Assembly: GCA_028283825.1 (NCBI GenBank) | Contig: JAPWJW010000003.1 | Span: 1,534,001 to 1,598,000, forward strand | Origin: Azospirillaceae bacterium | Lineage (GTDB): Bacteria > Pseudomonadota > Alphaproteobacteria > Azospirillales > Azospirillaceae | Direction of reading: 5' to 3' | DNA length: 64,000 nucleotides | Shown: positions 10,592 through 63,597 of the stretch, in pieces | How positions within the stretch are numbered: position 1 is the stretch's first letter | How the letters are laid out: each line of letters opens with the position of its first letter | Program-made: the position numbers and the translations under genes | The notes under the pieces: generated by a model | Database searches by the model: none | The model's input: only the letters and a program-made list of their open reading frames with translations | What the model was told of the DNA's origin: nothing

Positions 10592-10690
10592 CTCAGGCGC
10601 CGGCAGGCCCGTCCGGACCTTTGGCTTGTCCTCGCATTTCGGTCCGCTGACGCTCCCCAAAATGCTCCGGCGGCCGCGGTCGCGGCCTAG
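10592..10690 (+). repeat. Two-hairpin intergenic repeat, copy A
   Basis: Begins CCTCAGGCGCCGGC. Hairpin 1 stem AGGCCC/GGACCT (one mismatch) has loop GTCC, followed by TTTGGCTTGTCCTCG. Hairpin 2 stem GGCCGC/GCGGCC has loop GGTC and ends CTA. It lies between the convergent rpoH and aminotransferase genes, before the rpoH terminator. Confidence 0.8.
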
Positions 10691-10706
10691 TCGCTTCGCT
10701 CCGACC

Positions 10707-10742
10707 AGGGCCATGGGAAACCGTGGCCCTGGTTTCGTTTTG
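10707..10742 (+). terminator. Rho-independent terminator after rpoH
   Basis: The stem CAGGGCCA (10707-10714) pairs with TGGCCCTG (10725-10732), followed by GTTTCGTTTT. It occupies the position where copies B and C of the repeat carry a third hairpin. Confidence 0.7.
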
Positions 10743-10745
10743 GCG

Positions 10746-12047
10746 TCAGGCGATTGCCTTCAGCGCCCTTGCCAGCGCCGTCATGTCGTCGGGCGTGGTG
10801 CTGAAGCCGGGGGTGACGCGGATGCAGGCGCCGCCGGCCAGGCCGGCGCGCATGACCGTGAAGATGTGGTGGTCGGCCAGCAGGCGTTTCGCCAGCGCGG
10901 TGTTGTCCGCGACCGAGGTCCGGTCCTTCAGGCGGAACGACGTCATGCCGGCGCACAGGCGGGGGTCGTCGGGGGTCAGCACCTGTACCCCCGGTATCTC
11001 GCGGGCGGGCAGCGCCCACAGGTCGCGCAGGTAACGCAGGCGCGCGCCGATCACCTTGGTGCCGAGGGCGGCGTGGAAGTCCACGGCGTCAACGGCCGCC
11101 ATCTGGGCGGCGTAGTTGGCCATGCCGGTGTGCACCCGCGCCAGGATGGGATCGTCGGCCGCGACCTCCTCCCCCATGAAGGGATCGATGTCGGCGATGC
11201 GGTCCCGGCGGATGTAGAGGGCGCCGACGCCCGGCGGGGCGCCGATCCACTTGTGCAGGTTGAGCACGGCGAAATCGACGCCGTCGGCGCGGACATCGAC
11301 CGGCCCCTGGCCCCAGGCCTGGGCGCTGTCCACCACCACGTCCACCCCCCGGCGGCGGGCCAGGGCCACGATCTCCGCCACCGGCAGGCGCAGGCCGTCA
11401 CGGTGGCTGAGATGGGTCAGCAGCATCAGGCGGACGGCGGGGTGTGCCGCCAGCGCCTGGTCATAGGCGTCGATCAGGCCCTGGTCTGTCGCCGGCCAGG
11501 GCAGGTCCACGTTGACCACCGCCACGCCCCGGCGCCGTTCCAGCCAGGCCAGGGCCGTGCGGGCGCTGTCATAGTCATGGTCGCTCATCAGCACGGCGTC
11601 GCCGGGCCGCAACCGGCTGTAGCCGCTGAGCACCGCCTGCAGCGATTCGGTGGCGTTGCGGGTGATGACGATCTCACCCGGTTCGGCATTGATCTGGGCG
11701 GCGATGCGCTGCCGCAAGGCCTGGTAATAGGGCCAGAAGTCCCGCCGCACGAAGGTGGCACCCTCCGCGTTCACCTTGGCGGTGTAGCGGTCATAGGCGG
11801 CGTTGACGGCCAGCGGCATCTGGCCGAAGGCGCCGAATTCCAGGTTGATGATGCCGGTGTCCGGTCGCGCCGGATAGGCGGCGGCGATCTTCTGCCAGCC
11901 GGCCTCGTCATCCAGCGCCTTGGGCGCCGTGACGGTCGCGGGAACCGGTTGCGCCCCCGCCGGGGAGGACCCGGCCATCAGGCCACCGGCGGCCCCCATC
12001 AAGGCGGCTTGCAAAAGCATGCGTCGTTCCATGGACATGGACTCCAT
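10746..12047 (-). CDS. Exported class V aminotransferase-fold PLP enzyme (isopenicillin-N epimerase-like)
   Basis: 433 residues. The N-terminus (MERRMLLQAALMGAAGG, then an Ala-rich hydrophobic core ending near GAQP) resembles a Tat or Sec export signal, although it has only one Arg pair. The mature part is a class V aminotransferase fold: TRNATESLQAVLSGYSRLRP (cofactor phosphate region), DSAQAWGQGPVDVRADGVDF, and NLHKWIGAPPGVGALY with the PLP-binding Lys. Family members act as cysteine desulfurases, epimerases or lyases; the substrate is not deducible. Three in-frame ATGs (12047, 12038, 12032) crowd the start; GGAG lies 9 bases before 12032. It lies downstream of the TonB receptor on the same strand, separated by repeat copy B, and may act on the imported ligand (inference). 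Confidence 0.82.
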   Translation of the reverse strand: MESMSMERRMLLQAALMGAAGGLMAGSSPAGAQPVPATVTAPKALDDEAGWQKIAAAYPARPDTGIINLEFGAFGQMPLAVNAAYDRYTAKVNAEGATFVRRDFWPYYQALRQRIAAQINAEPGEIVITRNATESLQAVLSGYSRLRPGDAVLMSDHDYDSARTALAWLERRRGVAVVNVDLPWPATDQGLIDAYDQALAAHPAVRLMLLTHLSHRDGLRLPVAEIVALARRRGVDVVVDSAQAWGQGPVDVRADGVDFAVLNLHKWIGAPPGVGALYIRRDRIADIDPFMGEEVAADDPILARVHTGMANYAAQMAAVDAVDFHAALGTKVIGARLRYLRDLWALPAREIPGVQVLTPDDPRLCAGMTSFRLKDRTSVADNTALAKRLLADHHIFTVMRAGLAGGACIRVTPGFSTTPDDMTALARALKAIA

Positions 12048-12080
12048 CCGCCGACCGGCGGTTCAGGGATATCAGGATAA

Positions 12081-12114
12081 TACAGCGGCATGGGATTTCC
12101 CCCATGCCGCTGTA
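12081..12114. repeat. 14-bp perfect inverted repeat, third hairpin of repeat copy B
   Basis: The arms TACAGCGGCATGGG (12081-12094) and CCCATGCCGCTGTA (12101-12114) flank a 6-base loop. Related arms (AGCGGCATG and CATGCCGC) occur next to copy C at 17009-17040. It may terminate transcription leaving the TonB receptor gene, but no T-run is attached. Confidence 0.75.
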
Positions 12115-12210
12115 GGACGCGACCGCGTCCGCCGGAGCTTGCCCAGGGAGCGGAGTGGACTGGAAAGCGAGGAAGGCAAGCCGGCGGATGCCGGCGCCCG
12201 CCGATTGAGG
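12113..12210 (-). repeat. Two-hairpin intergenic repeat, copy B
   Basis: Minus orientation. Hairpin 1 has stem GCCGGC/GCCGGC with loop ATCC. The conserved block reads GGCTTGCCTTCCTCG. Hairpin 2 has stem GGACGC/GCGTCC with loop GGTC. It lies between the TonB receptor and aminotransferase genes (both minus strand). Confidence 0.8.
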
Positions 12211-12252
12211 GCGGCATTTGAGCGGTACGATCAAATGCCACGCATTCAAGCT

Positions 12253-14961
12253 TCAGAAAGCGGCGTTGACGCGCACGTAATAGCGGCCGCCATAGGTGTC
12301 GTAGGGCGCGTTGCGCGAATATTCGATGCCCCGGCTGGCCTGGTAGACGGCCTTTTCCGGATAGGTGTCGAAGATGTTCTCACCCGCCACCCGCACCGAC
12401 AGATTGTCGTTGATGTGATAGGTGACCGACAGGTCGTAGAAGGTGATGCCGCCGAAGGTCTGGTAGATGTCGCCGGTGGAATTGCCGGTGCTGTCCGTCC
12501 AGCCGCCGTAATACCGGACCCGCGCCTGGTATTCGAAGGGATGGTCGGTATAGGTGACGCTGGCCGTCACGTTGTTCTTGGGCAGGCCCTGTTCATACAG
12601 GATCTTCTGCGTCGGATTGGCGTTCAGGCTGCCGGCGGTCACCATGGTCAGGTTGTGATTGTAGGCCAGCTTCAGGTCCACGCGGCCCGTCTCGAACACC
12701 GGCTGGGTGTAGTCCACCACCACGTCCAGGCCCTGGGTGCGGGTGTTGAAGTCGTTGGTGAACCAGTAGACGGAGGTGTAGTTGTCCGCCCCCGGCACGC
12801 CCTGGGCCACCAGCTGGGCCTTTTGCGCCGCGGTCAGGGTGATGGTCTGGGAACTTGAGAAGCGGTTGGCGACGTCGACCTGGTAGGCATCGACCGAGCC
12901 CGACAGGCCGACATCGGTGCGCCAGACGGCACCCAGGCTGTAGTTCTGCGAGGTTTCGGGCTTCAGCGGCTGGGCGCCCAGCGCCACCGCCAGTGGGTTG
13001 TCCGGCGACAGGCGGCCGCTGGTGAACAGTTGCAGGGTGTTGGTGTCCAGCCCCTGCGAGGTGCTGAGGGAGTTGATCTGCCCCGGCGTCGGCGCCCGGA
13101 AACCGGTGGAGTATGAGGCGCGCAGGGCCAGGTCGGGCGTGATCTCGTACCGGGTGGAGGCCTTGTAGGTCATCTTGTCGCCGAAACCGCTGTAGGTCTC
13201 ATACCGGGCGGCACCACCCACGGTCCATTGCGGCAGCAGCTTGGCCTCAAGGTCCAGGTAACCGGCATAGCTGGTCTGGTACCAGGACCCGGCCTGCTGG
13301 TCGCTGAAGCCCGGGAAGCCGTTGGCGCCCGAGGCCAGGCCGGCGGTGGCGCCCGGCCCCACCAGATACGAGGCCTTGTCCCCCGTCTCCACTGTATAGA
13401 TCTCCAGCCGGCGCTCACCGCCGAAGGCGATGTTCAGCGGTTCCGGCAGGGCGCCGACATCCAGGCGATAGACGCCGTCGGCGTTCAGGTTGAACTCATC
13501 CTGCCGCTGGGTGCCCAGGAAGAAGTTGGTGGGGCTGTCCGGCCCCATCGACGCGTTGATGGAATTGTAGAGGTAGAAGCGGCTTTCGTTCTCGCCGTAC
13601 GACCCGCTGAGGTCCCAGTCGAAATCACCGCCGACATGGCCGCGGGTACCCCAGACGGCCTGATAGTCGGTGTACTTGATGCCTTCCTGCGGCGTGAAGC
13701 CGTTGGGGTAGAGGGACTTCAGGTCCCAGCCGGGGAAGATGGTGGGCGCCAGCCCGTAGACACTGGCGTTGCTCTTCACGTCGGGCGTGCGCCAGTTGAT
13801 GTCGTTCAGCCCCTCGCCCGTCGCCACGGTCATGAAGCCGTACACCTCCGCCGCGCCCACCGGCAGCATGCCGTCCACGGCGTAGTGGTAGGAACTCTCG
13901 TCCGGCCGACCCCAGCGCTGCACCGGGTCGGGGATCTTCAGGGATGGGTTGGCCGCCTGCAACGCGGCGGCATCCGCGCGCTGGTGAGTGCGGGAGGTCA
14001 GGGTGCCGTCCGACCATTCCGCCGTGGCGATCAGGTGGCCGCCGTCGCCCACCTCCGTCCCGGCGCGCAAACCGCCATTCCAGGTGGTGCCGTCGCCGGC
14101 ATAGTACTGCGAGCCCTGGGCGTAGCCATAGACGCCGGGCCGGTCGTCCAGCTGGATGTTGATGACGCCGGCGATGGCGTCGGACCCGTACTGGGCGGAG
14201 GCACCGTCGCGCAACACCTCCACCCGGCCGATGGCGAAGTCCGGGATCTGCGCCAGGTCCGCCCCCTGGGCGCCGCGCTGGCCCAGGAAGGCGGTGCGGT
14301 GGAAACGCTTGCCGTTGACCAGCACCAAGGTCTGGTCGGGCGACAGGCCGCGCAGATGGGCCGGGCGGATGAACTGCCCACCGTCGGAGCTGGGCAGCTT
14401 CTGCACGTTGAAGCCGGGAATGACCTGGGTCAGGTTTTCCAGCAGCTGGTTGGAGGCGCCGTCCTGAAGGTCCTTGGCGCTCAGCACGTCCACCGGCGTC
14501 ATGGTGGTGAACTGGGTGCGGCCACGATCGCGCGTGCCGGTGACCACGATCTCATCCAGGCTGCCACCGGCGGCATCGGCCACCTGGACGTCGGCGGGGG
14601 CCGCCTGGGCCCGGGGCCGGGCCGCCGACCCGGATGACGGTGCCACAGCCGGCGCCAGCTTCAGCACCACCGTGCGGCCGTCGTCCGACGCCACCACCAG
14701 GGGCGTGCCCTTCAGCAGGCGGGCCAGGGCCTGGCCGCGATCGAGATCGCCTTGCAAGGCGGCGGTGTTGATGCCGTCCAGCTGGTCGGTGGGCGCCAGG
14801 ATCTGGATGCCGGCTTGCTGGGCGAACAGGGGGATGGAACGCACCGCCGGCTGGGCCGCCAGATCGAAATGCGCGTTCTGCGCCCAGGCCGGCGTGACAC
14901 CCCACAGGCCACCCAACGCCGTGCCCGCCAACATCAGGCCGCGACCGTATTTCACAATCAT
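12253..14961 (-). CDS. TonB-dependent receptor with N-terminal STN signalling domain
   Basis: 902 residues. A signal peptide (ending AWA-QNA) is followed by an STN (secretin/TonB N-terminal) domain at about 30-100 (SIPLFAQQAGIQILAP, LLKGTPLVVASDDGRTV), a plug (about 140-260; TPVDVLSAKDLQDG, GVINIQLDD) and a beta-barrel ending with aromatic RYYVRVNAAF, the usual outer-membrane C-terminus. STN domains pass the ligand-bound state to a FecR-type anti-sigma factor; fecR and an ECF sigma gene lie immediately upstream on the same strand. ATG 14961 is preceded by GGGGGAAG at a suitable spacing, so it is preferred over TTG 14976. The ligand is unknown: the receptor resembles the large group with serine-rich, non-siderophore barrels, so iron is not certain. 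Confidence 0.9.
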   Translation of the reverse strand: MIVKYGRGLMLAGTALGGLWGVTPAWAQNAHFDLAAQPAVRSIPLFAQQAGIQILAPTDQLDGINTAALQGDLDRGQALARLLKGTPLVVASDDGRTVVLKLAPAVAPSSGSAARPRAQAAPADVQVADAAGGSLDEIVVTGTRDRGRTQFTTMTPVDVLSAKDLQDGASNQLLENLTQVIPGFNVQKLPSSDGGQFIRPAHLRGLSPDQTLVLVNGKRFHRTAFLGQRGAQGADLAQIPDFAIGRVEVLRDGASAQYGSDAIAGVINIQLDDRPGVYGYAQGSQYYAGDGTTWNGGLRAGTEVGDGGHLIATAEWSDGTLTSRTHQRADAAALQAANPSLKIPDPVQRWGRPDESSYHYAVDGMLPVGAAEVYGFMTVATGEGLNDINWRTPDVKSNASVYGLAPTIFPGWDLKSLYPNGFTPQEGIKYTDYQAVWGTRGHVGGDFDWDLSGSYGENESRFYLYNSINASMGPDSPTNFFLGTQRQDEFNLNADGVYRLDVGALPEPLNIAFGGERRLEIYTVETGDKASYLVGPGATAGLASGANGFPGFSDQQAGSWYQTSYAGYLDLEAKLLPQWTVGGAARYETYSGFGDKMTYKASTRYEITPDLALRASYSTGFRAPTPGQINSLSTSQGLDTNTLQLFTSGRLSPDNPLAVALGAQPLKPETSQNYSLGAVWRTDVGLSGSVDAYQVDVANRFSSSQTITLTAAQKAQLVAQGVPGADNYTSVYWFTNDFNTRTQGLDVVVDYTQPVFETGRVDLKLAYNHNLTMVTAGSLNANPTQKILYEQGLPKNNVTASVTYTDHPFEYQARVRYYGGWTDSTGNSTGDIYQTFGGITFYDLSVTYHINDNLSVRVAGENIFDTYPEKAVYQASRGIEYSRNAPYDTYGGRYYVRVNAAF

Positions 14962-15075
14962 TACATCTTCCCCCAACGATGAAGTGGGCGGCCTTGCCGT
15001 CCTCGACAGTCGGCCGCGCTCATTGCGTTCATGCTGGGAGAGAGAATTGGCGGCTTATCTTTCCGCCACTCCGTC

Positions 15076-15097
15076 ATTTAAGTTTAACAGCTTAAAT
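15076..15097. promoter_or_regulatory. Candidate operator upstream of the STN receptor gene
   Basis: A perfect inverted repeat ATTTAAG (15076-15082) and CTTAAAT (15091-15097), 8 bases apart, lies in the AT-rich 165-base gap between fecR and the receptor gene. The binding protein is unknown; a promoter for the ECF sigma factor would also be expected in this gap. Confidence 0.4.
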
Positions 15098-15126
15098 CCC
15101 TACGCGACCTATCCTCACGAACTCAT

Positions 15127-16759: not shown

Positions 16760-16911
16760 CCCGCTGCGGCGCCGGCAGACAAGGCCCATCCCCATCCCGG
16801 CGCACGCGATCGTCGTAGGGCCTTGATGCGTCAGCGGGGGTGTTTCCCCCATGCGTCATAAAAAATTTATAGTCTTACGCGCGCAGTTTGATCGTGGCCG
16901 ATCAAACTTCC

Positions 16912-17010
16912 CCTCAGGCGCCGGGCGCCAGCATCCGCTGGCTTGGCTTCCTCGATTTCCAGTCCGTCTTCGGCTCCCCAGAAATCTCCGGCGGCTGCGG
17001 TCGCAGCCTA
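16912..17010 (+). repeat. Two-hairpin intergenic repeat, copy C
   Basis: Hairpin 1 stem GCCAGC/GCTGGC has loop ATCC, followed by TTGGCTTCCTCGATTTCCAG. Hairpin 2 stem GGCTGC/GCAGCC has loop GGTC. A third hairpin (arms AGCGGCATG and CATGCCGC, 17012-17038) follows at the 3' side of the minus-strand cyclase gene. Confidence 0.8.
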
Positions 17011-17048
17011 CAGCGGCATGAGCCGAAGTCCCATGCCGCCGGTATTCT

Positions 17049-19025: not shown

Positions 19026-19120
19026 GGCCCGCACGGTAGCGGTCGGCCGGCCCGGCGGCAACTGCGGCAAGGGGGCACGCCACCCGTGTTGCGGGTATGG
19101 GGCGGATGCCAACTGAGCAT

Positions 19121-20571: not shown

Positions 20572-20572
20572 C

Positions 20573-20672
20573 CATGGCCGGCGACCGCCGGCCCCGGAAC
20601 TTTCCGGGGAACGCAGTGAACTGGAAAGTGAGGACAAGCCTAGCGGCCGGACGGCCGCGCCCGGCGCCTGAG
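20573..20672 (-). repeat. Two-hairpin intergenic repeat, copy D
   Basis: Minus orientation. Hairpin 1 stem GCGGCC/GGCCGC has loop GTCC. The block reads TAGGCTTGTCCTCA. Hairpin 2 stem GGCCGGC/GCCGGCC has loop GGTC. It fills the gap between the convergent SNase-like and globin genes almost exactly. Confidence 0.8.
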
Positions 20673-20679
20673 GGCGCGC

Positions 20680-22178: not shown

Positions 22179-22211
22179 CCTCAGGCGCCGGCGCCCCCAT
22201 CCGGGGGCTTG
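22179..22211 (+). repeat. Two-hairpin repeat copy E, left part cut by the IS110 element
   Basis: CCTCAGGCGCCGGC followed by hairpin 1 (stem GCCCCC/GGGGGC, loop ATCC) and CTTG. The rest of the same copy resumes at 23358 after the IS. Confidence 0.8.
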
Positions 22212-22242
22212 TATCTTCCCAATCTGCGTAAAGTAGCGCCGT

Positions 22243-22396
22243 CACGGGCTGGGGCATGCCCCAGCCCGTGATCCGACCGGAAGACCGTTCCAACGGCGGG
22301 AAGTTCCGGCTCCGTAGCCAAGCAAGGCTCTCCGGTCGGCCCCTTCATTAGCCCGAACAGTTGCACGGGGTCGCCGCCCCGCATGCGCAAGGCTGG
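22243..22396 (+). ncRNA. Putative bridge RNA of the IS110 element
   Basis: The left-end region folds as expected for an IS110 bridge RNA. There is a 5' hairpin (arms CACGGGCTGGGGC 22243-22255 and GCCCCAGCCCGTG 22258-22270). A first loop is closed by GACCGG (22275-22280) and CCGGTC (22332-22337). A second is closed by AGCC (22350-22353) and GGCT (22391-22394), with an inner hairpin CGGGG/CCCCG (22366-22381). The first loop holds TAGCCAAGC (22315-22323), the reverse complement of the target across the core and to its right (GCTTGGCTA). The second holds ACAGTTGC (22357-22364), identical to the element's right end (23351-23358). The left-target guide and right-donor guide are not clear; CAAG at 22388-22391 could pair with the core and first bases of the left end. 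Transcription was not shown. Confidence 0.72.
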
Positions 22397-22406
22397 GAGT
22401 ATGAAG

Positions 22407-23348
22407 ATGGCGCAGAACGACTCTATCATCGCCCTGGATGTCAGCAAGGACCGTCTCGACGGCTTCGACGATGAAACCGGGGATGTCTTCCAAATTGAGA
22501 ATTCCCCGGCTGGCTACGTGGCTTTGCGGCAACGCTGCCGGAAACGCACCGTGCAGATCGTCATGGAGGCCAGCGGTGGCTATGAACGGCCCGTCGCTCA
22601 GACCATGGTGAAGGCCGAGATCCCAGTTCGGATCGTCGACCCCCGCAAGGTTCGCTACTACGCCAAAGCTTCCGGTCGTTGGGCCAAGAATGATCGGCTC
22701 GACGCCCGCATGATCGCAGCCTATGCCAAGGCGATCAAAGGGGAAGACCACAAGCCGGACAAAGACCGGGAAGCGTTGGCTGAGCTGACAACATACCGCC
22801 GCCAATTGCTTGAGGATCGGACCACGATCACCAACCAGGCCAGACGGCTGGAGAACGCCGAACTGCGCCGACTGGCCAAGCGACGATTGAAATCCATCGC
22901 CCTTCAGATCGTCCTGGTCGATAAGCGCATCGCCAGCCACATCGCCGCCTCGGAGGTCTTGAAGACCAAGAACAAATTCCTCCGCTCCATCCCCGCCATA
23001 GGCCCTGTCTTCGCAAGTACCGCGCTGGCCCATATGCCCGAACTGGGCGCCCTTACACGCCAACAGGCTGCCGCCCTCGCCGGCGTCGCACCCATGGACA
23101 ATCAAAGCGGAAAACGCGACGGGCCCCGGAGCATCTACGGCGGAAGACCCGCCGTCCGTAACGTTCTCTACATGGCCGCCGTCGTCGCCAGCCGCCACAA
23201 CCCACCCCTGGCCGCCTTCTACAAAAAGCTCATCGCCGCCGGCAAAAAGCCCAAGGTCGCTCTCACCGCACTCATGCGGAAAATCATCGTCCTCGCAAAC
23301 TCAATCCTCAGGCAACAGCGCGAATACGATCCGGCTCACGCCTCATGA
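22407..23348 (+). CDS. IS110-family transposase (DEDD recombinase)
   Basis: 313 residues. The N-terminal RuvC-like DEDD domain shows ALDVSKDRLDGF (first Asp), VMEASGGYERP (Glu) and KNDRLDARMIAAYAK (Asp pair). The C-terminal Transposase_20 domain has LRSIPAIGPVFASTALA and GVAPMDNQSGKRDGPRSI, with the serine proposed as nucleophile in NQSGKRDG. These enzymes excise and insert the element as a circular intermediate using a bridge RNA. The start at 22407 is chosen because GGGAG (22395-22399) then has good spacing; 22401 and 22383 are in-frame alternatives. All catalytic residues are present, so the copy looks active. Confidence 0.93.
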   Translation: MAQNDSIIALDVSKDRLDGFDDETGDVFQIENSPAGYVALRQRCRKRTVQIVMEASGGYERPVAQTMVKAEIPVRIVDPRKVRYYAKASGRWAKNDRLDARMIAAYAKAIKGEDHKPDKDREALAELTTYRRQLLEDRTTITNQARRLENAELRRLAKRRLKSIALQIVLVDKRIASHIAASEVLKTKNKFLRSIPAIGPVFASTALAHMPELGALTRQQAAALAGVAPMDNQSGKRDGPRSIYGGRPAVRNVLYMAAVVASRHNPPLAAFYKKLIAAGKKPKVALTALMRKIIVLANSILRQQREYDPAHAS

Positions 23349-23357
23349 AGACAGTTG

Positions 23358-23427
23358 CTTGGCTATCCTCGATTTCCAGTCCGCCTGCGGCTCTCCGGAA
23401 ATCTCCGGCGGCCGCAGTCGCGGCCTA
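23358..23427 (+). repeat. Two-hairpin repeat copy E, right part after the IS110 element
   Basis: Resumes with CTTGGCTATCCTCGATTTCC, then the CCGGAAATCTCCGG segment and hairpin 2 (GGCCGC/GCGGCC, loop AGTC). Joined with 22179-22211 it makes a normal complete copy. Confidence 0.8.
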
Positions 23428-23486
23428 CGGGTCTGGCGGCCCGATGGGAGACCTTTCCTTCAGGGCTGTACGGAGCGAAGCGACAA

Positions 23487-23571
23487 GGACGCGACCGCGT
23501 CCGCCGCAGCGAGCACCGAAGGGCGCAGCGAGGATAGCCAAGCCCCCGGATGGGGGCGCCGGCGCCTGAGG
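23487..23571 (-). repeat. Two-hairpin intergenic repeat, copy F
   Basis: Minus orientation, facing copy E. Hairpin 1 is identical to that of copy E (GCCCCC/GGGGGC, loop ATCC). The block CTTGGCTATCCTCG is intact, and hairpin 2 is GGACGC/GCGTCC with loop GGTC. The middle segment is the second subtype (CTGCGCCCTTCGGTGCTCGC), shared with copies H and L. Confidence 0.8.
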
Positions 23572-23580
23572 AACTGAATA

Positions 23581-23609
23581 GCCCCCAGAGGGGGCGCCGG
23601 CGCCTGAGG
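23581..23609 (-). repeat. Truncated two-hairpin repeat, copy G
   Basis: Only the CCTCAGGCGCCGGC end and hairpin 1 (GCCCCC/GGGGGC, here with loop TCT) are present, 9 bases beyond copy F and in the same orientation. It lies just 3' of the minus-strand antiporter gene. Confidence 0.7.
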
Positions 23610-26962: not shown

Positions 26963-27050
26963 CCTCAGACGCCGGGCGCGGCCCTCCGGCCGCTTGGCTT
27001 CCTCGGCTCGCGCCCTGCGGTACTCGCTGCGGGGCCGGCGGTCGCCGGCC
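26963..27050 (+). repeat. Two-hairpin intergenic repeat, copy H
   Basis: Starts CCTCAGACGCCGGGC. Hairpin 1 has stem GCGGCC/GGCCGC with loop CTCC, followed by CTTGGCTTCCTCGG. The middle is the second subtype (GCGCCCTGCGGTACTCGCTG). Hairpin 2 has stem GGCCGGC/GCCGGCC with loop GGTC. It lies between the rplT terminator and pheS, about 70 bases upstream of the pheS start. Confidence 0.8.
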
Positions 27051-27118
27051 ATAACGGCGTTCGTGTCATTGCCAGTACCCAAGAACCGTCCCAACGCACC
27101 CAATAACGGATCGTCGCG

Positions 27119-30862: not shown

Positions 30863-32551
30863 ATGAGGTTTTTCCGGGATCTGCCCATCATCCAGAAACT
30901 GCTGCTGCCCCTGATCCTGATGGGTCTGGTGACGCTGGGCACCTCGCTCTACACCCTGTCGCAGATGAACACGGGTGCCGCACAGTACCAGTACCTGCTG
31001 CGTGGCGAGGCGGAGGCGCTGAAGGCCATCGACCGCGCCAATGGGGCCGCCGCCAATATCGGGCGCATCAGCTACATGATGGTGGCCGAGACCGACAAGT
31101 TCATCATCGACAGCATGAAGGATGAGATCGGGCAGCAGGCCAGCGACCTGGGCCGCTATCTGGACGCGGTGGCGACCCTGCACCCCGGCACCAAGGATGA
31201 CCTGGCCATGGCCAGGGCCGAGTTCAAGGCCATGATGGGCTTCGCGGAGAAGGCGCGCGAACAGATGCTGGCCGGCGACACCAAGGCCGGGGCATCCACC
31301 CTGACCGATGAGTTCGATATCCGCCTGTCCAAGCTGCAGGACCGGCTGACCGTCATCACCAAGGCGGTGGACGACAGCCTGGCCAAGGGCGAGGCCGCCG
31401 CCAAGGCGCGCAACGAGCGCACCTACTGGGTCACCCTGGCCAGCGGCCTGTCGGGTGCGGTGCTGGTGATGGCGCTGGCGCTGTGGATGGCCTGGGCCGG
31501 TGTCTCCCGCCCGCTGAAACGCATCGTCGACAGCATGACCGCCCTGGCCGACGGCGACCGCACGGTGGAGATCCGGACGACCGAACGGCGGGACGAGATC
31601 GGCGCCACCGTGCGGGCCCTGCGCATCTTCCAGCGCACCATGGGCGAGGCCGACACCCTGCGCCATGAGCAGGAAACCCTGAAGGCCCAGGCGCAGGCGG
31701 AACGCCACCAGGCGCTGGCCCGCCTGGCGGATGAGTTCGAGGCCGCCATGGACCAGGTGGTGGAGGGGGTGGGCGGTGCCGCCGACCGCATGCAGGGCAG
31801 CGCCAAGGGCCTGTCCGCCATCGCCGAGCAGACCAACCACCAGACCTTGGCGGTGGCAGGCGCCGCCGAGGCGGCCGCCGGCAACGTCAACACCGTGGCC
31901 GCCGCCGCCGAGCAACTGTCCGCCAGCATCCAGGAGATCGGCCGCCGGGTGGAGGAGTCGTCCGGCATCGCCCAGGATGCGGTGATGGAAGCGGAACGCA
32001 GCAACCACACCGTCAGCGGCCTGGTGGAGGCGGCGCGCAAGATCGGCGATGTGGTGCGCCTGATCAGCGACATCGCCAGCCAGACCAACCTGCTGGCCCT
32101 GAACGCCACCATCGAGGCGGCGCGCGCCGGTGAGGCCGGCAAGGGTTTCGCCGTGGTGGCATCGGAGGTGAAGACCCTGGCGACCCAGACCGCCAAGGCG
32201 ACGGAGGAGATCAGCGCCCAGATCGGGGAGATCCAGTCGGTGGCCGGCAACGCCGCCGGCGCCATCCACGGCGTCAGCGGCACCATCGGCCGCATCAGCG
32301 ACATCGTCGCCACCATCGCCGCCGCCGTGGAACAGCAGGGTGCCGCCACCAACGAGATCGCCAGCAGCGTGGCCCAGGCCGCCGCCGGCACCTCCGACGT
32401 GTCCAGCACCATCGGCCAGGTCACCCGGGCGGCCAGCGAAACCGGCACCATGGCCAGCGACGTGCTGCACGCGGCGCAAGACCTGGTCAGCCAATCCGAC
32501 CATCTGCGCCACCAGGTGGCCGGCTTCGTCGCCAAGGTGCGGGCGGGGTAG
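30863..32551 (+). CDS. Methyl-accepting chemotaxis protein (first)
   Basis: 562 residues. Transmembrane helix 1 (about 10-32) is followed by a periplasmic helical sensor (about 33-190), a second transmembrane helix (about 195-215), a HAMP domain ([20 protein letters not shown]) and a long MCP signalling coil whose tip is [20 protein letters not shown] with the usual [17 protein letters not shown]. It senses an unknown ligand and controls CheA. No C-terminal CheR-docking pentapeptide is seen. ATG 30863 is preceded by GGAGGGG at good spacing; the upstream ATG at 30839 is less likely. No chemotaxis genes are adjacent, so it is an orphan receptor. Confidence 0.93.
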
Positions 32552-44523: not shown

Positions 44524-44559
44524 TTCCCTCAATTGCCGGGCGCCCGGCGCTTGAGGGAA
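44524..44559. repeat. Copy I: head-to-head repeat ends forming a terminator-like palindrome
   Basis: The arms TTCCCTCAA (44524-44532) and TTGAGGGAA (44551-44559) enclose GCCGGGCGCCCGGC, itself palindromic. Each half equals the CCTCA(A)...GCCGGGCGC start of the dispersed repeat. On the minus strand it is followed by AACAAAAACAAAAATC, and on the plus strand it is preceded by TTTTTGTTTTTG, so it likely terminates regA and perhaps DUF1674. Confidence 0.7.
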
Positions 44560-44565
44560 CCCGCA

Positions 44566-47476: not shown

Positions 47477-47572
47477 CCTCAAGCGCCGGCGGGCCATCCG
47501 GCCCTTGGCTATCCTCGATTCCCAGTCCGCCTTCGGCTCCCCGGAAATCTCCGCCGGACGCGGTCGCGTCCT
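47477..47572 (+). repeat. Two-hairpin intergenic repeat, copy J
   Basis: Starts CCTCAAGCGCCGGC. Hairpin 1 has stem GGGCC/GGCCC with loop ATCC, then CTTGGCTATCCTCGATTCCC. Hairpin 2 has stem GGACGC/GCGTCC with loop GGTC and is followed by CTAGCTCGCTGCGCTCGCG, also present after copy K. Confidence 0.82.
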
Positions 47573-47601
47573 AGCTCGCTGCGCTCGCGGGTCTTCCTGA
47601 G

Positions 47602-47698
47602 CCTCAGGCGCCGGCGGGGCATCCGCCCCTTGGCTAATCCTCAGTTTCCGGTCCGCTAATGCTCCCCGGAAACTTCCGGCGGACGCGGTCGCGTCCTA
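47602..47698 (+). repeat. Two-hairpin intergenic repeat, copy K (tandem with J)
   Basis: Starts CCTCAGGCGCCGGC, 125 bases after copy J and in the same orientation. Hairpin 1 has stem GGGGC/GCCCC with loop ATCC, then TTGGCTAATCCTCA. Hairpin 2 has stem GGACGC/GCGTCC with loop GGTC. With J it fills most of the 374-base gap 47465-47838, which otherwise holds nothing recognised. Confidence 0.82.
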
Positions 47699-55123: not shown

Positions 55124-55132
55124 GAACTATAC

Positions 55133-56209: not shown

Positions 56210-56258
56210 CAGGTCATCCTTTCAGGCGGTACTACGGGTGAGTGGGGGGCTGCGACCG

Positions 56259-57932
56259 TCAGGCCGCGCGCAGGGCCGCCAGGAAGGTGGAGACCTTGCC
56301 GCGCAGATCCTCCGCCTGGGTGGACAGGCCGTTGGCGGCCGTCAGCACGTCGCCGGCCACGTCACCCGTCTCGCCCGCCACCTCGCGCACACCGTTCATG
56401 CCGGCGCTGACCTCACTGGTGCCGCGCGCCGCCTCCTGCACGTTGCGGGCGATCTCCTGCGTCGCCGCCCCCTGTTCCTCCACCGCCGCGGCGATGGTGG
56501 TGGTGATGTGGTCGATCTCACCGATGGTCTGGCCGATGGCGGTGATGGCCTTGGCCGCCTCACCCGTCGCGGCCTGCATGGCTTCGATCTGCTGGCGGAT
56601 GTCGTTGGTGGCCCGTTCCGTCTGGTTGGCCAGGGCCTTGACCTCGGACGCCACCACGGCGAACCCTTTGCCGGCCTCACCCGCGCGTGCCGCTTCTATG
56701 GTGGCGTTCAGGGCCAGCAGGTTGGTCTGGCCGGCGATGTCGCTGATCAGGGCGACCACGGCGCCGATCTGCTGCGCCGCCTCGGTCAGGCTGGTCACGG
56801 CGTCGGTGGTGCGCGTCGCCTCATCCACCGCCTTGGTGGCGATGGTGGCGGAGATGGAGACCTGGCGCCCGATCTCACCGATGCTGGCGCCCAGTTCCTC
56901 GGCCGCCACGGCCACCGTCTGCACGTTGGCCGCCGCCTGTTCCGAGGCGCCGGCCACCGCCACCGCGTCGCGGGCGCCAGTTTCGGCGATGCGGCTCAGG
57001 CTCTCCGCCGTGGTGTGCAGGCCGGTCGAGGCCTGGGTCACCGATTGCAGGGTGTGGGCCACGTCGGTGTCGAAGGTCTGCACCAGGCCGTCCACGCGGT
57101 TGGCGCGCTCCGCCTTGGCCGCGGCCTCGGCCGCCTGCTGGGCCGCCAGTTCGTCGCCCTGGCGCATGTTGGTGCGGAAGACATCGATGGCGCGCGCCAT
57201 GTCGCCCACCTCATCCCCGCGCGTGGTGCCGTCCAGGGTGAAAGCATAATCCTTGTGCGCCAGGCGGCGCATGACACCGGCCAGGCGGGCCAGGTGCTGG
57301 GCCACGTCGCGGTCCAGCCACAGCACGGCGCCGATGGACAGGGCCACCGCCACCAGGGCGGCGACGATGATGCTCCAGAACGCGTGGGTGTAGGCCGCCT
57401 GCACCACCTCGTTCGCCGTGGCCGCCCCCTCGCGGTCATAGGTCGCCAGCGCCTCCAGCGCCGCCTGCACCTTGCGGAAGGTCACGACGATGTCGCCGTT
57501 CATGGCCTTTTCCGCCAGGTCGCGGTGGTCCTTGGCGTCGGCGAAGGCGGCGGCCATCGCCGCCTCATACGGCCCGCGCAGGGCCTGGTACTTGGCATAG
57601 AGGTCGGCGGCCGGCCCCGTCACGCCGATGGCGTCGAACCGCTTCATGGCGGCCGCCAGGTCGGTCGTCTGCTTTCCATATAGCTTGATGGCCTCATCCC
57701 GCGCCGTATCGTCGGCCGACACCACCACCCGGCTGGCGGAGATGCGCTGGCGGGCCGTGGCCGTCTTCAAGTCGCCGAGGACGTCGATGGACGGCAGCCA
57801 TACGGTGCGGATTTCGGCCGCGGCGCTATTGATGGTGCCGATCTGCCAGAGGGCCAGAAGACTAATGGCGATGGTCAACAGCAACAGGCTGCCGAACGCG
57901 GTCAGCAGTTTAGGGCGAAGCGCCAGATTCAT
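56259..57932 (-). CDS. Methyl-accepting chemotaxis protein (second)
   Basis: 557 residues. Transmembrane helix 1 (about 10-32), a 4-helix-bundle sensor ([40 protein letters not shown]), transmembrane helix 2 (about 188-208), HAMP ([20 protein letters not shown]) and an MCP signalling domain with tip [20 protein letters not shown]. Orphan receptor without adjacent che genes. ATG 57932 is preceded by GGTGG; ATG 57944 is an in-frame alternative, and the longer frame to 58064 is AT-rich non-coding. The two MCPs of the window share the signalling module but not the sensor. Confidence 0.92.
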
Positions 57933-58151
57933 AAAAACCACCATCAATTTTGCTAAAGGTCGAAGTAATTCAACCTCCCCGATTGATCTTATAAACTCTC
58001 TGTTACGCTTTGTCGTGATGCGGTGAATTCGCCCGGCCGCTATGTACGGCCCGCAGTTCCGCAACCCTGCGACCTCACAAGCACTCGACAGCCGGCGGCT
58101 TAGCCGTCACCTTCAGGCATTGATGCAAAATAATACTGCAAAGGACTTGGG

Positions 58152-59531: not shown

Positions 59532-59550
59532 GCGGGCGGGACGGCGTCGC

Positions 59551-62220
59551 CTACCTCACCGGCACGAGGTCGATGGCTGACACCACGGCCTGGCCGGTCA
59601 GGGGCCGGAATTCCAGCGTCAGGCCGGTGGCACCCTTGGCCGTCGCCTCCACCGTGCGGTCCAGCGCCTTCAGCACCCCGCCCGCCTGGGCGGCGATGTC
59701 CAGGCCCTTCACCACCACCGCGTCCCCGGCCAGCACGTCGAACACCCGGGCGCCCGGCGTGGCCCCCTTGGGCTCCATGAAATGCAGGGTGACGCGATAG
59801 CGCCCCGCCGGCACCGGCACCCGGTAGGTGAAGGCGCCCTCGCGGTAGGTTTCATACAGGGCGGGATCACCTGAGCCGGTGACCGCCGGAATGGCCTGGT
59901 CCGGCACGCCCTGTTCCGGCGGCGGGTTGCGGTCGTGCGGCGTGCCGCCGTCAACGAAGGCGTCGGAGCCATAGCGGGCGCCGCCGGCCGTCGTCAGCCC
60001 GGCGGACGAGCCGGCACGGATGCGTATCTCATCCCCCGCGCCGTCGTAGCGCCAGGTGACGCTGTCGCTGAGGGGCTTGCCATCGATCTGCGCCGTGACG
60101 GTCAGGACGTTGGCGCCCGCGTCCAGGCGCACGGCCGGCCACAGGCAGACATGGTCCAGGCAGGGGGCGATGCCCAACTCGCGGCCGTTCAGGCTCAGCC
60201 GGGCGGCGGCGGCGTTGCTGTAGGCCTGCACGTCCGTCACGGGATAGGCGCGGTCGATGTAACGCCGACCGTTCAGGTGCAGCACCGGCCGGCCGCTCCA
60301 GTCCGCCTGGTAGAAATAGAACACGTCCTTGCGGACGGTGCGGTCATAGGACACCAGGCCCTTGTCGTTGGTATCGACCATGTCGCCCTCGGTCCGGCTG
60401 TCGCTGGCGAAGTCGAACATGGTCCAGAGGAAGGTGCCCCACAGGTAGGGACGGTCCTTCAGCTGCGCCCACCAGATCTCATGCAGGCGGCTTTCCAGTT
60501 CCTCGGGATGGAAATGGCCCTTGGGGTAGACCACGCCGCCCTGGCCGGAGCCCGCATCCACCTGGTCGGTGTGCTGGGTCAGGCCGCCGCCGCCGCCATA
60601 TTCGCTGACCGCCAGCGGCAGGCCGGGGTGCAGGCCGTGCAGCCGGTCCAGCACGGGCCCCAGATCCTCCGGCTTTTCATAATACCAGCCCTGGTAACGG
60701 TTATAGCCCAGCAGGTCGGTGATGCCGGCCACCACGTCCACGCCCGGCCGGGGCTGGTCGGGCCGGGGCTCGCAGCAATCGGCCATGGTGGTGGGCCGGG
60801 TGTGGTCCAGGGTATAGGCCAGGTTGTTGAGGTCGGTCAGCAGCGGGCGCGCGTCGCTGACGCCATGGCCGCTGGCCGCCATCAGGTTGACCTCATTGCC
60901 GATGGACCAGGTGACGACGCTGGGGTGGTTGTAGTTCTGCTTGACCAGTTCCCGCAGCTGGCTTTCCGCGTTGGCGGTGAAGGCCGGCGTGGTGACACCC
61001 TTGTCGCCCTCCGCCGTTTCGGGTGCGGTGCGGTTGACCAACGGGATTTCCGCCCACACCACCACACCGTCGCGGTCGGCCAGGTCGTAGATGGCCTGGT
61101 CGTGCTGGTAATGGGCAAGGCGCAGGGCGTTGACGCCCATGTCCAGCATGATGTCCATGTCCTGGGCCTGGTCGGCCGGACTGATGGCCCAGCCCTTGCC
61201 CGGCCGGTCCTGGTGGCGGGACACGCCGTGCAGCGCCAAATGCTTGCCGTTCAGGAAAAAGCCCCGCTCGGGATCAAAGCGGAAGGCGCGGATGCCCAGG
61301 GGCTGGGCCACCTGGTCCATCTCGCCGGGGGCGCCCTCCACCATCACCACCACGTGGTACAGGTAGGGATCGGCACGGCCATCCCACAGGTGCGGGGTCG
61401 GCACGGTCAGGGTCTGCACCACCTCATCCCCCGCGCCGGCGGCCAGCGCCAGGGGCTGGCTGGCACTGGCGACAACCGCGCCGCCGGCATCCACGATGGC
61501 CGCCTTGACCGCCACGGTACGGGCCTGGGTCGCGTCGTTCTTCACCCGGGCCGTCACCTCGATGCTGGCGGCCTTGTCATCCACCTCGGCCGTGCGGGCG
61601 TAAACGCCGGGCCCGCCCCAGTCCATCATATCGACATGCACGGGGTCGGTGGCGATCAGCGATACCGGGCGGTACAGCCCGCCGAACAGGAAGAAGTCGC
61701 CCGACATGGGGATGACCTCCGCCGTCGCGGCACCCACCGTCTTTGGGCTGGAATTGTCGGTGCGCACCGCCAGCACGTTGGCCTTGCCCATCTTCAGGGC
61801 GCTGGTGGCGTCAAAGCGGAAGCGGCCGAAGGCGCCCTTGTGCATGCCCAGCTTCACGCCGTTCAGCCAGACCTCGGCATTGATGCTGGCGCCGTCGAAC
61901 TGCAGCCAGATCTTGCGGCCGGCATAGTCGGCCGGCGGCTTGAACGACAGGCGGTACCAGCCGGCCCCCCGCGTGGCGTTGTAGTCGGGTGCCCGCCTGG
62001 CCGTGCCACCCAGATGGTTCCAGGTGTGCGGCAGGGTGACCGCCGCCCACTTATGATCGTTGAAGGCGGTCGCGTCCGCCCCCGGCGCATCGCCCTGCTG
62101 GAACCGCCAGCCGGTGGTCAGCGGCATCTCGCGGCGCTCGGCCGCCTGAGCCGTACCGGCCAGGGATGAGACCGCCGTCAGGACGGCCAGGATGCGGCGC
62201 ATCGCCGAAACAGAAATCAT
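59551..62220 (-). CDS. Exported glycoside hydrolase family 2 enzyme with malectin-like domain
   Basis: 889 residues. Signal peptide (RRILAVLTAVSSLAGTAQAA), GH2 sugar-binding N-domain (LTTGWRFQQGDAPGADATAF), immunoglobulin-like domain and GH2 TIM barrel with acid/base Glu in VVTWSIGNEVNLMAASGHGV and nucleophile Glu in LPLAVSEYGGGGGLTQHTD. A C-terminal malectin-like carbohydrate-binding domain (AFTYRVPVPAGRYRVTLHFM; GARVFDVLAGDAVVVKGLDI) is the last 130 residues. Probably a beta-galactosidase, beta-mannosidase or beta-glucuronidase-type enzyme in the periplasm; the sugar is not determinable. Start ATG 62220 has GGGAGG upstream; 62202 is an alternative. The last gene of the window (C-terminal fragment) may be another secreted glycosidase. 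Confidence 0.88.
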   Translation of the reverse strand: MISVSAMRRILAVLTAVSSLAGTAQAAERREMPLTTGWRFQQGDAPGADATAFNDHKWAAVTLPHTWNHLGGTARRAPDYNATRGAGWYRLSFKPPADYAGRKIWLQFDGASINAEVWLNGVKLGMHKGAFGRFRFDATSALKMGKANVLAVRTDNSSPKTVGAATAEVIPMSGDFFLFGGLYRPVSLIATDPVHVDMMDWGGPGVYARTAEVDDKAASIEVTARVKNDATQARTVAVKAAIVDAGGAVVASASQPLALAAGAGDEVVQTLTVPTPHLWDGRADPYLYHVVVMVEGAPGEMDQVAQPLGIRAFRFDPERGFFLNGKHLALHGVSRHQDRPGKGWAISPADQAQDMDIMLDMGVNALRLAHYQHDQAIYDLADRDGVVVWAEIPLVNRTAPETAEGDKGVTTPAFTANAESQLRELVKQNYNHPSVVTWSIGNEVNLMAASGHGVSDARPLLTDLNNLAYTLDHTRPTTMADCCEPRPDQPRPGVDVVAGITDLLGYNRYQGWYYEKPEDLGPVLDRLHGLHPGLPLAVSEYGGGGGLTQHTDQVDAGSGQGGVVYPKGHFHPEELESRLHEIWWAQLKDRPYLWGTFLWTMFDFASDSRTEGDMVDTNDKGLVSYDRTVRKDVFYFYQADWSGRPVLHLNGRRYIDRAYPVTDVQAYSNAAAARLSLNGRELGIAPCLDHVCLWPAVRLDAGANVLTVTAQIDGKPLSDSVTWRYDGAGDEIRIRAGSSAGLTTAGGARYGSDAFVDGGTPHDRNPPPEQGVPDQAIPAVTGSGDPALYETYREGAFTYRVPVPAGRYRVTLHFMEPKGATPGARVFDVLAGDAVVVKGLDIAAQAGGVLKALDRTVEATAKGATGLTLEFRPLTGQAVVSAIDLVPVR

Positions 62221-62379
62221 CAAGCGGGCCTCCCACCCCAGTCCGGCCGCCTTGAAGGCCACCGGTGTCAGGCAGGCCGATACGCCGCCCCTAATCCTCG
62301 ATCGCGGGCGATGGTGGCCAGGGCGCCTGGCCCTGTCAAGCAGGCGGCACTAGGCAAATGGTCAAGGTAATCCGGGTAC

Positions 62380-63453
62380 TTAAAACCCGAACTCCAATTG
62401 CGCCGCCGGTCCCGACGCCTCGAAACTGGAAACGGTGACGCCCAGCAGGCGGATGCCGGTGGGCAGGGGATAGACGCTGCGCACCAGGTCGATGCTGACG
62501 CCGCGCAGCGTTTCCTGCGCCACCACCGGGGCGGCCAGGGTGCGGCTGCGCGTGGCCTGGCGGAAGTCGCCGTACTTGATCTTCACGGTCACGGTACGGC
62601 CAAAGGCCTGCGCCTTCTCACACCAGGCCCAGACCTCGTCCGCCATGGCGCGCACGCCCTCCTCCACCGCCGCCGGTTCGGTCAGATCCTCGGCGAAGGT
62701 GGTCTCGGAACCGGAGGATTTGCGCGGCCGGTCGGACACCACCGGCCGGTTGTCCTCGCCATGGGCGATGGCGTGGTACCAGGGGCCGGCCTTGCCGAAA
62801 TGGGTTTGCAGGAAGGTGGGCGTCTGGCGGCGCAGGTCGGCGCCGGTGTGGATGCCCAGGCCATTCATCTTCTCGGCCGTCACCGGCCCCACGCCGTGGA
62901 AGCGGCCGACGGCCAGGTTTTCCACAAAGGCCTCGCCATGGCCGGGCGGTACCACGAACTGGCCGTTGGGCTTGCGGTAGTCCGATGCCAGCTTGGCCAG
63001 GAACTTGTTGTAGGAGATGCCGGCGGAGGCGTTCAGCCCCGTCTCCGCCTTGATGCGGGCGCGAATCTCGACGGCGGTCGCGGTCGCCGTGGGCAGGCCG
63101 CGCCGGTTCTCCGTCACGTCCAGATAGGCCTCATCCAGCGACAGCGGCTCGATCAGGTCGGTGTAGTCGGCGAAGATGTCCCGGATCTGGCGGGAGATGG
63201 CGCGGTAGACCTCGAACCGCGGCGAGACGAAGACGATGTGCGGGCATTTGCGCAAGGCGGTGGTGGACGGCATGGCGCTGCGCACACCGTATTCCCGCGC
63301 CTCGTAACTGGCGGCCGCCACCACGCCGCGCTTGGCGCCATGGCCCACCGCCACCGGCCGGCCGCGCAGGTGCGGATTGTCGCGCTGTTCCACCGACGCA
63401 TAGAATGCGTCCATGTCGATGTGGATGATCTTGCGGATGCCGGGGTCGCTCAT
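62380..63453 (-). CDS. dinB: DNA polymerase IV (Y-family, translesion)
   Basis: 357 residues, complete. Catalytic Asp residues in IIHIDMDAFYASVEQRDNPH and SLDEAYLDVTENRRG, with the finger/palm context VAAASYEAREYGVRSAMPST. The little-finger domain (VTVKIKYGDFRQATRSRTLA) follows. It copies damaged templates without proofreading. The C-terminus ends with hydrophobic Phe after about 10 residues, without a long tail; a beta-clamp motif is not obvious. Often under LexA control, but no LexA box is recognised upstream. Copy L of the repeat lies upstream of the start. Confidence 0.95.
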   Translation of the reverse strand: MSDPGIRKIIHIDMDAFYASVEQRDNPHLRGRPVAVGHGAKRGVVAAASYEAREYGVRSAMPSTTALRKCPHIVFVSPRFEVYRAISRQIRDIFADYTDLIEPLSLDEAYLDVTENRRGLPTATATAVEIRARIKAETGLNASAGISYNKFLAKLASDYRKPNGQFVVPPGHGEAFVENLAVGRFHGVGPVTAEKMNGLGIHTGADLRRQTPTFLQTHFGKAGPWYHAIAHGEDNRPVVSDRPRKSSGSETTFAEDLTEPAAVEEGVRAMADEVWAWCEKAQAFGRTVTVKIKYGDFRQATRSRTLAAPVVAQETLRGVSIDLVRSVYPLPTGIRLLGVTVSSFEASGPAAQLEFGF

Positions 63454-63508
63454 AACCCCGGTATCTTAGCAGATTGCCCATGAACGAAAAGCGAACATGT
63501 TGATTCGC

Positions 63509-63597
63509 CCTCAATCGCCGGGCGCCAGCATGCGCTGGCTTGGCTGTCCTCGCTCCGCCCTTCGGTACTCGCTCCGGCGCCCGCGGTCGCGGGCTAT
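63509..63597 (+). repeat. Two-hairpin intergenic repeat, copy L
   Basis: Starts CCTCAATCGCCGGGC. Hairpin 1 has stem GCCAGC/GCTGGC with loop ATGC, then TTGGCTGTCCTCG. The middle is the second subtype (CTCCGCCCTTCGGTACTCGC). Hairpin 2 has stem GCCCGC/GCGGGC with loop GGTC. It lies between dinB and the C-terminal fragment gene. Confidence 0.82.

Follow-up and report, generated by a model that had tools for sequence, protein, structure and literature searches.

A 64,000-nucleotide (nt) stretch of an Azospirillaceae genome (GenBank assembly GCA_028283825.1, contig JAPWJW010000003.1, positions 1,534,001 to 1,598,000), hereafter the window, carries a palindromic sequence that recurs between its genes. 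What is this repeat, is its fold selected in DNA or in RNA, and how does it spread? The repeat is a non-coding, intergenic DNA of about 100 bases with three hairpins, present in hundreds of genome copies, mostly directly 3′ of genes. On balance, we think it probable that it is a mobile palindromic family akin to the repetitive extragenic palindromic (REP) sequences and bacterial interspersed mosaic elements (BIMEs), and that it acts at the DNA level.

Structure, copy number and range of the repeat

The core of the repeat spans about 97 bases and is composed of hairpin 1 (loop RTCC), the block CTTGGCT, a variable hairpin 2 and hairpin 3 (loop RGTC). We aligned 32 full copies, 30 chosen by the exact 14-mer CCTCAGGCGCCGGC; the alignment contains three covarying hairpins and two short inner helices, with 97.3% of the cells paired. 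In 14 of the 25 pairs, both sides have changed in some copy. Cells with both sides changed number 109, compared with 28 in shuffles, none of the 500 reaching the observed number, and 3–18 when the partner is slid by 1–3 columns. A first-pass annotation of the window had described a repeat that is dispersed, keeps its fold, varies little in its loops and has opposite arms that change together. The alignment bears this out, the covariation exceeding its controls. That annotation had counted two hairpins around a middle segment; there are three, the segment being itself a covarying stem. The inner extension of hairpin 1 (AGG/CCT, GCC/GGC) is nearly invariant, in part because its 5′ side lies within the selecting 14-mer. 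All 32 aligned copies start with CCTC, as does the 14-mer by which 30 of them were picked. The motif stands before hairpin 1 and in many copies also before hairpin 2; the core ends in CCTA in most copies inspected.

The 5′ part was tested separately on 50 sequences. Both-sides-changed cells number 93 versus 35 in shuffles, and the test beats shuffles in three of five measures; the two in which it does not are the number of changed pairs (5, shuffles 5.0) and of pair types (13, shuffles 15.1). Folded as single-stranded DNA, copy K beats its shuffles on the two strands (z −3.2 and −4.0) and copy C does so less markedly (z −2.0); copy B folds no better than shuffles (z −1.2, 25 of 200 as good). 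A long-range stem preferred in the copy K fold, CGCCGG..CCGGCG, is possible but without support: CGCCGG is kept in 52 of 67 copies not selected by the 14-mer, and among the seven with CGGCGG the three partners inspected show no matching change.

The covariance model R1 matches the window at 11 places, the weakest (22179, E = 0.074) being cut by an insertion sequence (IS). About a dozen copies had been proposed. Ten sites, A–F, H and J–L, match R1 as placed (Table 1; the match to B starts at 12114), whereas G is a hairpin-1 fragment and I a palindrome of two 5′ ends, neither being a full copy.

The repeat extends far beyond the window. In the source genome (7.16 Mb, five contigs) the 14-mer occurs 50 times and its reversed control not once; with the covariation controls, this rejects a chance origin. 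We examined 37 stretches around 14-mer matches and compared 50 places, which combine fixed blocks with freely changing, mutually complementary arms; a few are a bare 14-mer without the rest (for example, L023 and L041). A genome search with R1 gives at least 150 matches, all with E < 3e-11. Twenty evenly spaced 20-kb stretches (400 kb) contain 29 matches at E ≤ 4e-5; scaled up, the genome probably contains about 500 copies, with wide error, and copy density in the window is above the genome average. The R1 list for the even sample omits four non-window matches (E 0.14–0.49) and keeps 22179, and two of its window rows were shortened to exclude the IS.

The copies are not fragments of a coding transposon: the translations between nearby copies, read by eye, are of ordinary genes, none reads as a transposase and no coding transposon is attached in the gaps between neighbouring copies. 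A known Rfam RNA is also rejected, as the window has no match at gathering score and the nine matches with E ≤ 5 on three copy-holding loci all fall far under it. Searches of open PubMed Central (PMC) text by topic and by sequence words yielded no description of the repeat; as far as they extend, the family is undescribed.

Two forms exist. Type I starts with CCTCA..CGCCGGC and type II with CCTCA..CGCCGGGCG. Type II accounts for 25 of the 29 copies in the even sample and type I for four. The 120 distinct cores gathered comprise 64 of type I, 48 of type II and eight untyped, the 14-mer-gathered sets being richer in type I; the selected stretches and the range-scan pattern use the type I start, so that type I is over-represented in them, including the Sphingomonadales set. 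The 12 bases 5′ of the core are rich in T: 49% in type I (64 cores), 35% in type II (48) and 50% in the Sphingomonadales set (88), compared with 18% just after stops generally. Some of the copies listed come after a terminator-like T-tract (6 of 64 type I cores by a strict script). Outer hairpins flank the core, by strict script, in 13/48 (left) and 19/48 (right) type II cores and in 0/64 and 13/64 type I cores. The outer ends of full type II units are TAATACCAGCGGC and GCCGCGCGTATAA, or sequences close to them, and resemble imperfect inverted repeats. L266 and L268 (G000 C5:88432 and C1:548463) are short units that have the type II outer ends but lack a core, which suggests that the shell can stand by itself.

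The family has a wide but patchy range. Named genomes were scanned with a pattern fixing the 5′ block and TTGGCT.TCCTC, which returned at least 120 stretches. Among the matches listed are Nitrospirillum amazonense, N. viridazoti, N. iridis and Azospirillum sp. B4, together with many Sphingomonadales (Sphingomonas, Rhizorhabdus, Novosphingobium, Sphingobium, Erythrobacter, Qipengyuania, Croceibacterium and others); Magnetospirillum and Phaeospirillum have one record each. Sphingomonadales copies share the RTCC loop and, further on, a hairpin whose loop is GGTC-like; their middle parts and 3′ ends differ. In Erythrobacter and relatives (L122, L129, L135, L137, L169 and others), two mismatched bases recur symmetrically in hairpin 1 (as in GTTCGC / GCTCAC) and may form an internal loop fixed in these genera. 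The 14-mer is present in all seven genomes of the genus, 5 to 50 times each. Across the class, at least 12 of 240 sampled genomes, in nine families, have a match, a lower bound set by scoring at most 27 candidates per genome; one (G057) of two other genomes from the same family has no match, with few candidates scored.

Table 1 Features of the window. The outer hairpins of copies B and C and the palindrome I were read directly from the sequence.
Feature	Position	Strand	Details
Copy A	10591..10689	+	Type I core (CCTCAGGCGCCGGC); 8 nt past the stop codon of a gene of the sigma-70 family (Pfam); R1 104.8 bits
Copy B, right outer hairpin	12083..12112	-	CAGCGGCATGGG..CCCATGCCGCTG
Copy B	12113..12210	-	Type II core (CCTCAATCGGCGGGCG); R1 62.4 bits
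Copy B, left outer hairpin	12213..12239	-	GGCATTTGA..TCAAATGCC; unseen at empty sites
Copy C, left outer hairpin	16885..16908	+	AGTTTGATCG TGGC CGATCAAACT
Copy C	16912..17010	+	Type II core; R1 94.5 bits
Copy C, right outer hairpin	17011..17041	+	
Copy D	20576..20673	-	Between two convergent stop codons; R1 86.6 bits
Copy E, 5′ part (hairpin 1)	22179..22208	+	Interrupted by the IS
IS110-family insertion sequence	22209..23357	+	In copy E at CTTG^GCT; ends ambiguous by CTTG at both junctions
Candidate target-binding part of bridge/seek RNA	22315..22323	+	TAGCCAAGC, located in the non-coding 5′ region of the IS, pairs with repeat GCTTGGCTA by complementarity; AGCCAAGC match
IS110 transposase open reading frame, 321 amino acids	22383..23348	+	DEDD_Tnp_IS110 (PF01548) 1.3e-19; Transposase_20 (PF02371) 8.1e-19
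Copy E, 3′ part (hairpins 2 and 3)	23358..23427	+	R1 75.3 bits
Copy F	23486..23571	-	Type I, short middle hairpin; R1 67.2 bits
Copy G	23576..23609	-	Hairpin-1 fragment; exact 14-mer start; absent among R1 matches
Copy H	26963..27055	+	Type II, behind a terminator-like T-tract; R1 31 bits, E = 0.002
Copy I	44524..44561	.	Short palindromic remnant, two head-to-head 5′ ends
Copy J	47477..47573	+	Type I; R1 96.7 bits
Copy K	47602..47698	+	Type I, tandem to J; R1 104.3 bits
Copy L	63509..63596	+	Type II, short middle hairpin; R1 47.8 bits

Elsewhere in the window, positions 31966-32392 and 56418-56844 form a 427-nt inverted repeat (74%), probably two related genes on opposite strands.

Gene-end placement and turnover among relatives

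As proposed in the first-pass annotation, the copies lie between genes: none of the 40 scored (11 in the window, 29 elsewhere) overlaps a gene predicted by our own hexamer gene finder, which missed the IS110 gene of Table 1. Of the 37 with both neighbours, 24 sit between convergent and 13 between tandem genes, and none between divergent genes, although divergent gaps are the longest class there (18.8 of about 52 kb). A second Nitrospirillum set of 85 copies divides into 53 convergent, 32 tandem and 0 divergent. Overall, 0/125 Nitrospirillum rows overlap predicted genes and 0/122 with both neighbours are divergent; in this genus as well divergent gaps are the longest class. The set made up mostly of Sphingomonadales comprises 107 of 108 rows, one partial row with E = 0.00078 being omitted; no copy in it lies in a gene and the 80 with both neighbours comprise 33 convergent, 45 tandem and 2 divergent cases. 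The loci L033 and L089 overlap, and four copies are therefore counted twice in the Nitrospirillum position and orientation rows; identical cores were counted once for the leader, the mismatches and the 121 cores analysed below.

Both orientations occur, as had been noted, with a bias that refines the claim. Between convergent genes the 5′ end of the repeat is nearer a stop codon than the 3′ end is in 58/74 Nitrospirillum rows, commonly 4–15 nt off; in the even sample plus window this holds for 18 of 24, with six the other way. Tandem pairs in Nitrospirillum give 25 sense and 19 antisense rows. Where the upstream gene is in the sense direction, the 5′ end falls within 20 nt past the stop in 40/70 selected rows and in 18/32 rows of the even sample plus window. 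The repeat thus has the general features of REPs: it is intergenic, present in many copies and mostly absent between divergent genes. Gene-end position alone is not new, because PMC3733652 describes known REPs, those of S. wittichii among them, as lying similarly close to 3′ ends. At L089 (about 9237-9400) and the orthologous L279 and L281-L284, antisense copies end, often in CCTGAGG, a few bases before the next start codon, and the end of an antisense repeat may supply the Shine–Dalgarno sequence of that gene; a copy-less relative, L280, has CCTGAGG before the start codon on its own.

Orthologous sites were compared in six relatives where data allowed, with gene names (rph, hrcA and grpE) that we take from their translations. 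Site A is filled in 7/7 Nitrospirillum genomes and the site behind the rph-like gene in 6/7. Copies C and D are each found in the source genome only, their sites being empty in 5/5 relatives that have them. The hrcA-like site is likewise filled in the source genome only and empty in six relatives. The T-rich leader probably came with the element, because it is missing from these six empty sites. Copy B is present in the source genome and G006; five others are empty, some of them keeping a GTATTA-like end sequence. Copy E occurs in the source genome, G002 and G004, the latter two without the IS; three other relatives have no copy at site E, but they also have a different next gene. Copy H is full in the source genome and in 4/5 relatives with the site, and shortened in G004.

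Other sites differ in the completeness of their copies. Where the window has palindrome I, G002 has a full copy. Site J has two copies in the source genome, one in G002, remnants in G003 and G001 and none in G006. The grpE-like site holds short palindromes in G003 and G004 and full or paired copies in the others. At 44524-44561, at the grpE-like site (L283 and L284) and at site J (L220), inverted neighbours seem to have collapsed to short palindromes that join two 5′ ends; a deletion between the inverted repeats is the apparent cause.

Sequence is less constant than position. At locus A the source copy is 77–88% identical to its six orthologues, and 389–393 nt of upstream coding flank are 92–94% identical; unrelated type I copies within the source genome have a mean identity of 82.6% (s.d. 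3.9%, 400 pairs among 47). The element at this locus has thus drifted as far apart as unrelated copies have, and the gene beside it has not. Orthologues at locus H are 83–97% alike, and the rph-like site holds type I in some species and type II in others. Judged from these comparisons, the shared sites look like cases of replacement in place, re-insertion at the same spot being the alternative.

An IS110-family insertion sequence inside the repeat

Copy E is one element split by an insertion of the IS110 family, recognizable by its N-terminal DEDD and C-terminal Transposase_20 domains and its fixed target. The source genome has four near-identical copies of this IS and G006 has three at 73% identity, whereas none is found at E ≤ 1e-50 in five other genomes of the genus. 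All seven copies lie inside the repeat at CTTG^GCT, and TAGCCAAGCAAGG is kept in all three G006 copies. From the match between the IS non-coding region and its target we infer that an RNA may guide the IS to the repeat. IS110 relatives that target REPs are described in PMC11187229 and PMC1525189, namely IS621 in E. coli and ISPpu10 in P. putida. Like these members of IS110/IS1111, the window IS occupies a single fixed position within a repeated palindrome and has a matching sequence in a long non-coding region; unlike them, it targets another repeat family, and its bridge/seek RNA is a candidate.

Reverse transcriptase genes also occur in several copies. Eight near-identical matches of the same score (a 457-amino-acid open frame) were found, at G000 C1:730836-731453 and seven more places (L286, L287 and L288; L095 at about 5281-7140). 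They belong to an element of about 1.85 kb that stands behind a terminator-like hairpin in the four flanks read, a placement typical of group IIC introns, to which it may belong. A link between such introns and the repeat is rejected: in a pattern search of these loci, no repeat core was found.

Level of action and means of spread

The first-pass annotation had left the selected structure to RNA or extruded DNA. If an RNA fold is selected, G-U should outlast A-C on the transcribed strand. Across four stem sets, counted in parsable copies only (94, 85, 99 and 116), there are 2251 Watson–Crick pairs, 22 G-T, 29 A-C and 64 others (G-T versus A-C, P = 0.40). The acceptor and T stems of 29 tRNAs of the same DNA give 314 Watson–Crick pairs, 24 G-T, 6 A-C and 4 others; these are the distinct CCA-ending tRNAs of 41 ARAGORN records, and ARAGORN may itself favour G-U. 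Because G-T is no commoner than A-C in the repeat, unlike in the tRNAs, the mismatches are indirect evidence for palindromy at the DNA level, and of the two options the data lean towards DNA.

The same counts bear on the proposal that the repeat is an RNA element of 3′ untranslated regions, serving transcript-end protection, attenuation or as a source of small RNAs, with its RNA fold selected and its copies spread by recombination. The gene-end location and the closeness of the 5′ end to sense stops (40/70 and 18/32 rows), the T-rich leader (49–50% T versus 18% background), the retention of site A in 7/7 genomes and the argument for an RNA function of REPs made from similar placement in PMC3733652 all speak for such an element. 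We consider it quite unlikely, given that the stems tolerate A-C as readily as G-T where tRNAs do not, that tandem pairs hold 25 sense and 19 antisense copies, that some antisense copies stand directly before a start codon and that a separate terminator-like T-tract precedes some copies. In its strict sense-strand form the proposal is rejected by the 19 antisense rows.

The first-pass annotation saw no Y1 transposase of the REP-associated tyrosine transposase (RAYT) type in the window, and PF01797, the Y1/RAYT family, finds none in the entire source genome; the control search was positive in 5 of 14 genomes, including E. coli. In the class sample, Y1 is found in 4/12 element-bearing and 49/228 other genomes, which is no strong link, and the eight element-bearing genomes without it include G181 and G202, with 24 and 26 repeat matches. 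An ordinary REPIN/RAYT system whose Y1 transposase has been lost from the lineage would have REP-like hairpins, intergenic placement and copy number, as observed, and in 85 of 121 distinct Nitrospirillum cores the foot of hairpin 3 does read TAG on the bottom strand. However, GTAG is not fixed there (GTAG 38, another base before TAG 47, no TAG 36), and Sphingomonadales copies end otherwise. No unpaired GTAG tag is found at the 5′ end either, the last four bases being TGTT in 13, AGTT in 12 and TTCG in 8 of 64 type I copies. With Y1 absent from the source genome under a working control and from 8/12 element-bearing genomes, we hold this explanation to be highly improbable.

On the tested features, the repeat belongs to neither the GTAG nor the CGTC family of REPs; it nonetheless probably functions as REPs do. 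The former are described in PMC3116915 and PMC2817692 as non-autonomous palindromic repeats of high copy number, often in inverted pairs, and associated with RAYT. Our repeat shares palindromy and copy number with them, but its genome has no RAYT found by PF01797 and its cores no fixed GTAG tag. CGTC-tagged REPs, as presented in PMC3733652, are palindromic, intergenic and mostly alphaproteobacterial, lie mainly between convergent or unidirectional genes near 3′ ends and have no known dedicated transposase. They are single stems of 8–9 bp, the first two pairs being AT, with loops of 4–5 and a CCA-like tail, and their tag is often CCTC, with TGTC another form (PMC3733652). The repeat resembles them in palindromy, intergenic placement, alphaproteobacterial host and closeness to 3′ ends, and its CCTC before hairpins may correspond to their tag; compared by feature description, it differs from them in its three hairpins over about 97 bases and its lack of a CCA tail.

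Composite and miniature elements offer further comparisons. E. coli BIMEs combine several palindromic modules in intergenic mosaics. The repeat is likewise an intergenic composite of palindromic modules, but its core has a fixed module order, and the T-rich leader or outer shell is peculiar to the family. Correia repeats are miniature elements, short and non-coding. The repeat is similar in these respects and in the related outer ends of the type II unit, and dissimilar in showing no target duplication by eye; nor was a parent IS met, although no systematic search was made.

The outer ends raise the possibility of a miniature inverted-repeat transposable element moved by a DDE-type transposase that would recognize TAATACCAGCGGC / GCCGCGCGTATAA on the full type II unit, type I copies being derivatives without the shell. 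The prevalence of type II in the unselected sample (25/29) fits this, as do 20 loci around one end sequence viewed by eye, of which 13 adjoin a core (about nine of these also showing the other end), two are the coreless shells L266 and L268 and five are unrelated; another genus of the family has ATACCAG..CTGGTAT outer ends (L238). The strict script, however, detects the outer hairpins in only a minority of type II cores (left 13/48, right 19/48; type I 0 and 13/64), the inverted repeats are imperfect, target duplication was not seen by eye and no parent IS was met, with no systematic search made. We regard this explanation as unlikely.

We return to the REP/BIME-like reading, in which a mobile palindromic family acts as DNA. 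We observed its copy number, its gene-end placement, its varying presence among species, its covariation, a tolerance of G-T equal to that of A-C, and its service as an IS110 landing site. Beyond these, an enzyme acting in trans on hairpins of single-stranded or cruciform DNA would spread the copies; those behind a stop codon would persist by doing little harm there; non-allelic recombination would rewrite them; and inverted neighbours would collapse to short palindromes. Effects on transcripts, if any, would be a by-product.

Several points weigh against this reading. No mobilizing enzyme was found, with PF01797 absent from the source genome and Y1 in 4/12 versus 49/228 genomes of the class sample, and no target-site duplication was seen by eye in the flanks of the loci around one end sequence. 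The orientation bias between convergent genes (58/74) exceeds what a neutral insert needs. Symmetric mismatches could come from recombination that homogenizes an RNA-acting element, and PMC3733652 reads an RNA function into a similar placement of REPs at gene ends. Some empty sites may be old deletions, as the GTATTA-like stretch at some B sites indicates. Finally, the copies at locus A in G001, G002 and G006 are 97–99% alike among themselves, so turnover is not universal.

A more far-reaching proposal, possible but doubtful, is that the repeat represents a class of multi-hairpin alphaproteobacterial repeats moved by an undescribed enzyme, other than Y1/RAYT, that would recognize folded DNA. 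Such repeats would dock behind stop codons and be rewritten in place by recombination, with position inherited and sequence not, and an IS110 lineage would have specialized on them as a safe site.

An abundant family whose presence differs at several sites between species, in genomes without detected Y1, makes for a testable case. The count of mismatch symmetry is a simple means of separating DNA-level from RNA-level palindromes in other repeats, and the IS110 element within the repeat provides a natural example of target choice, one that may be readable from its non-coding region.

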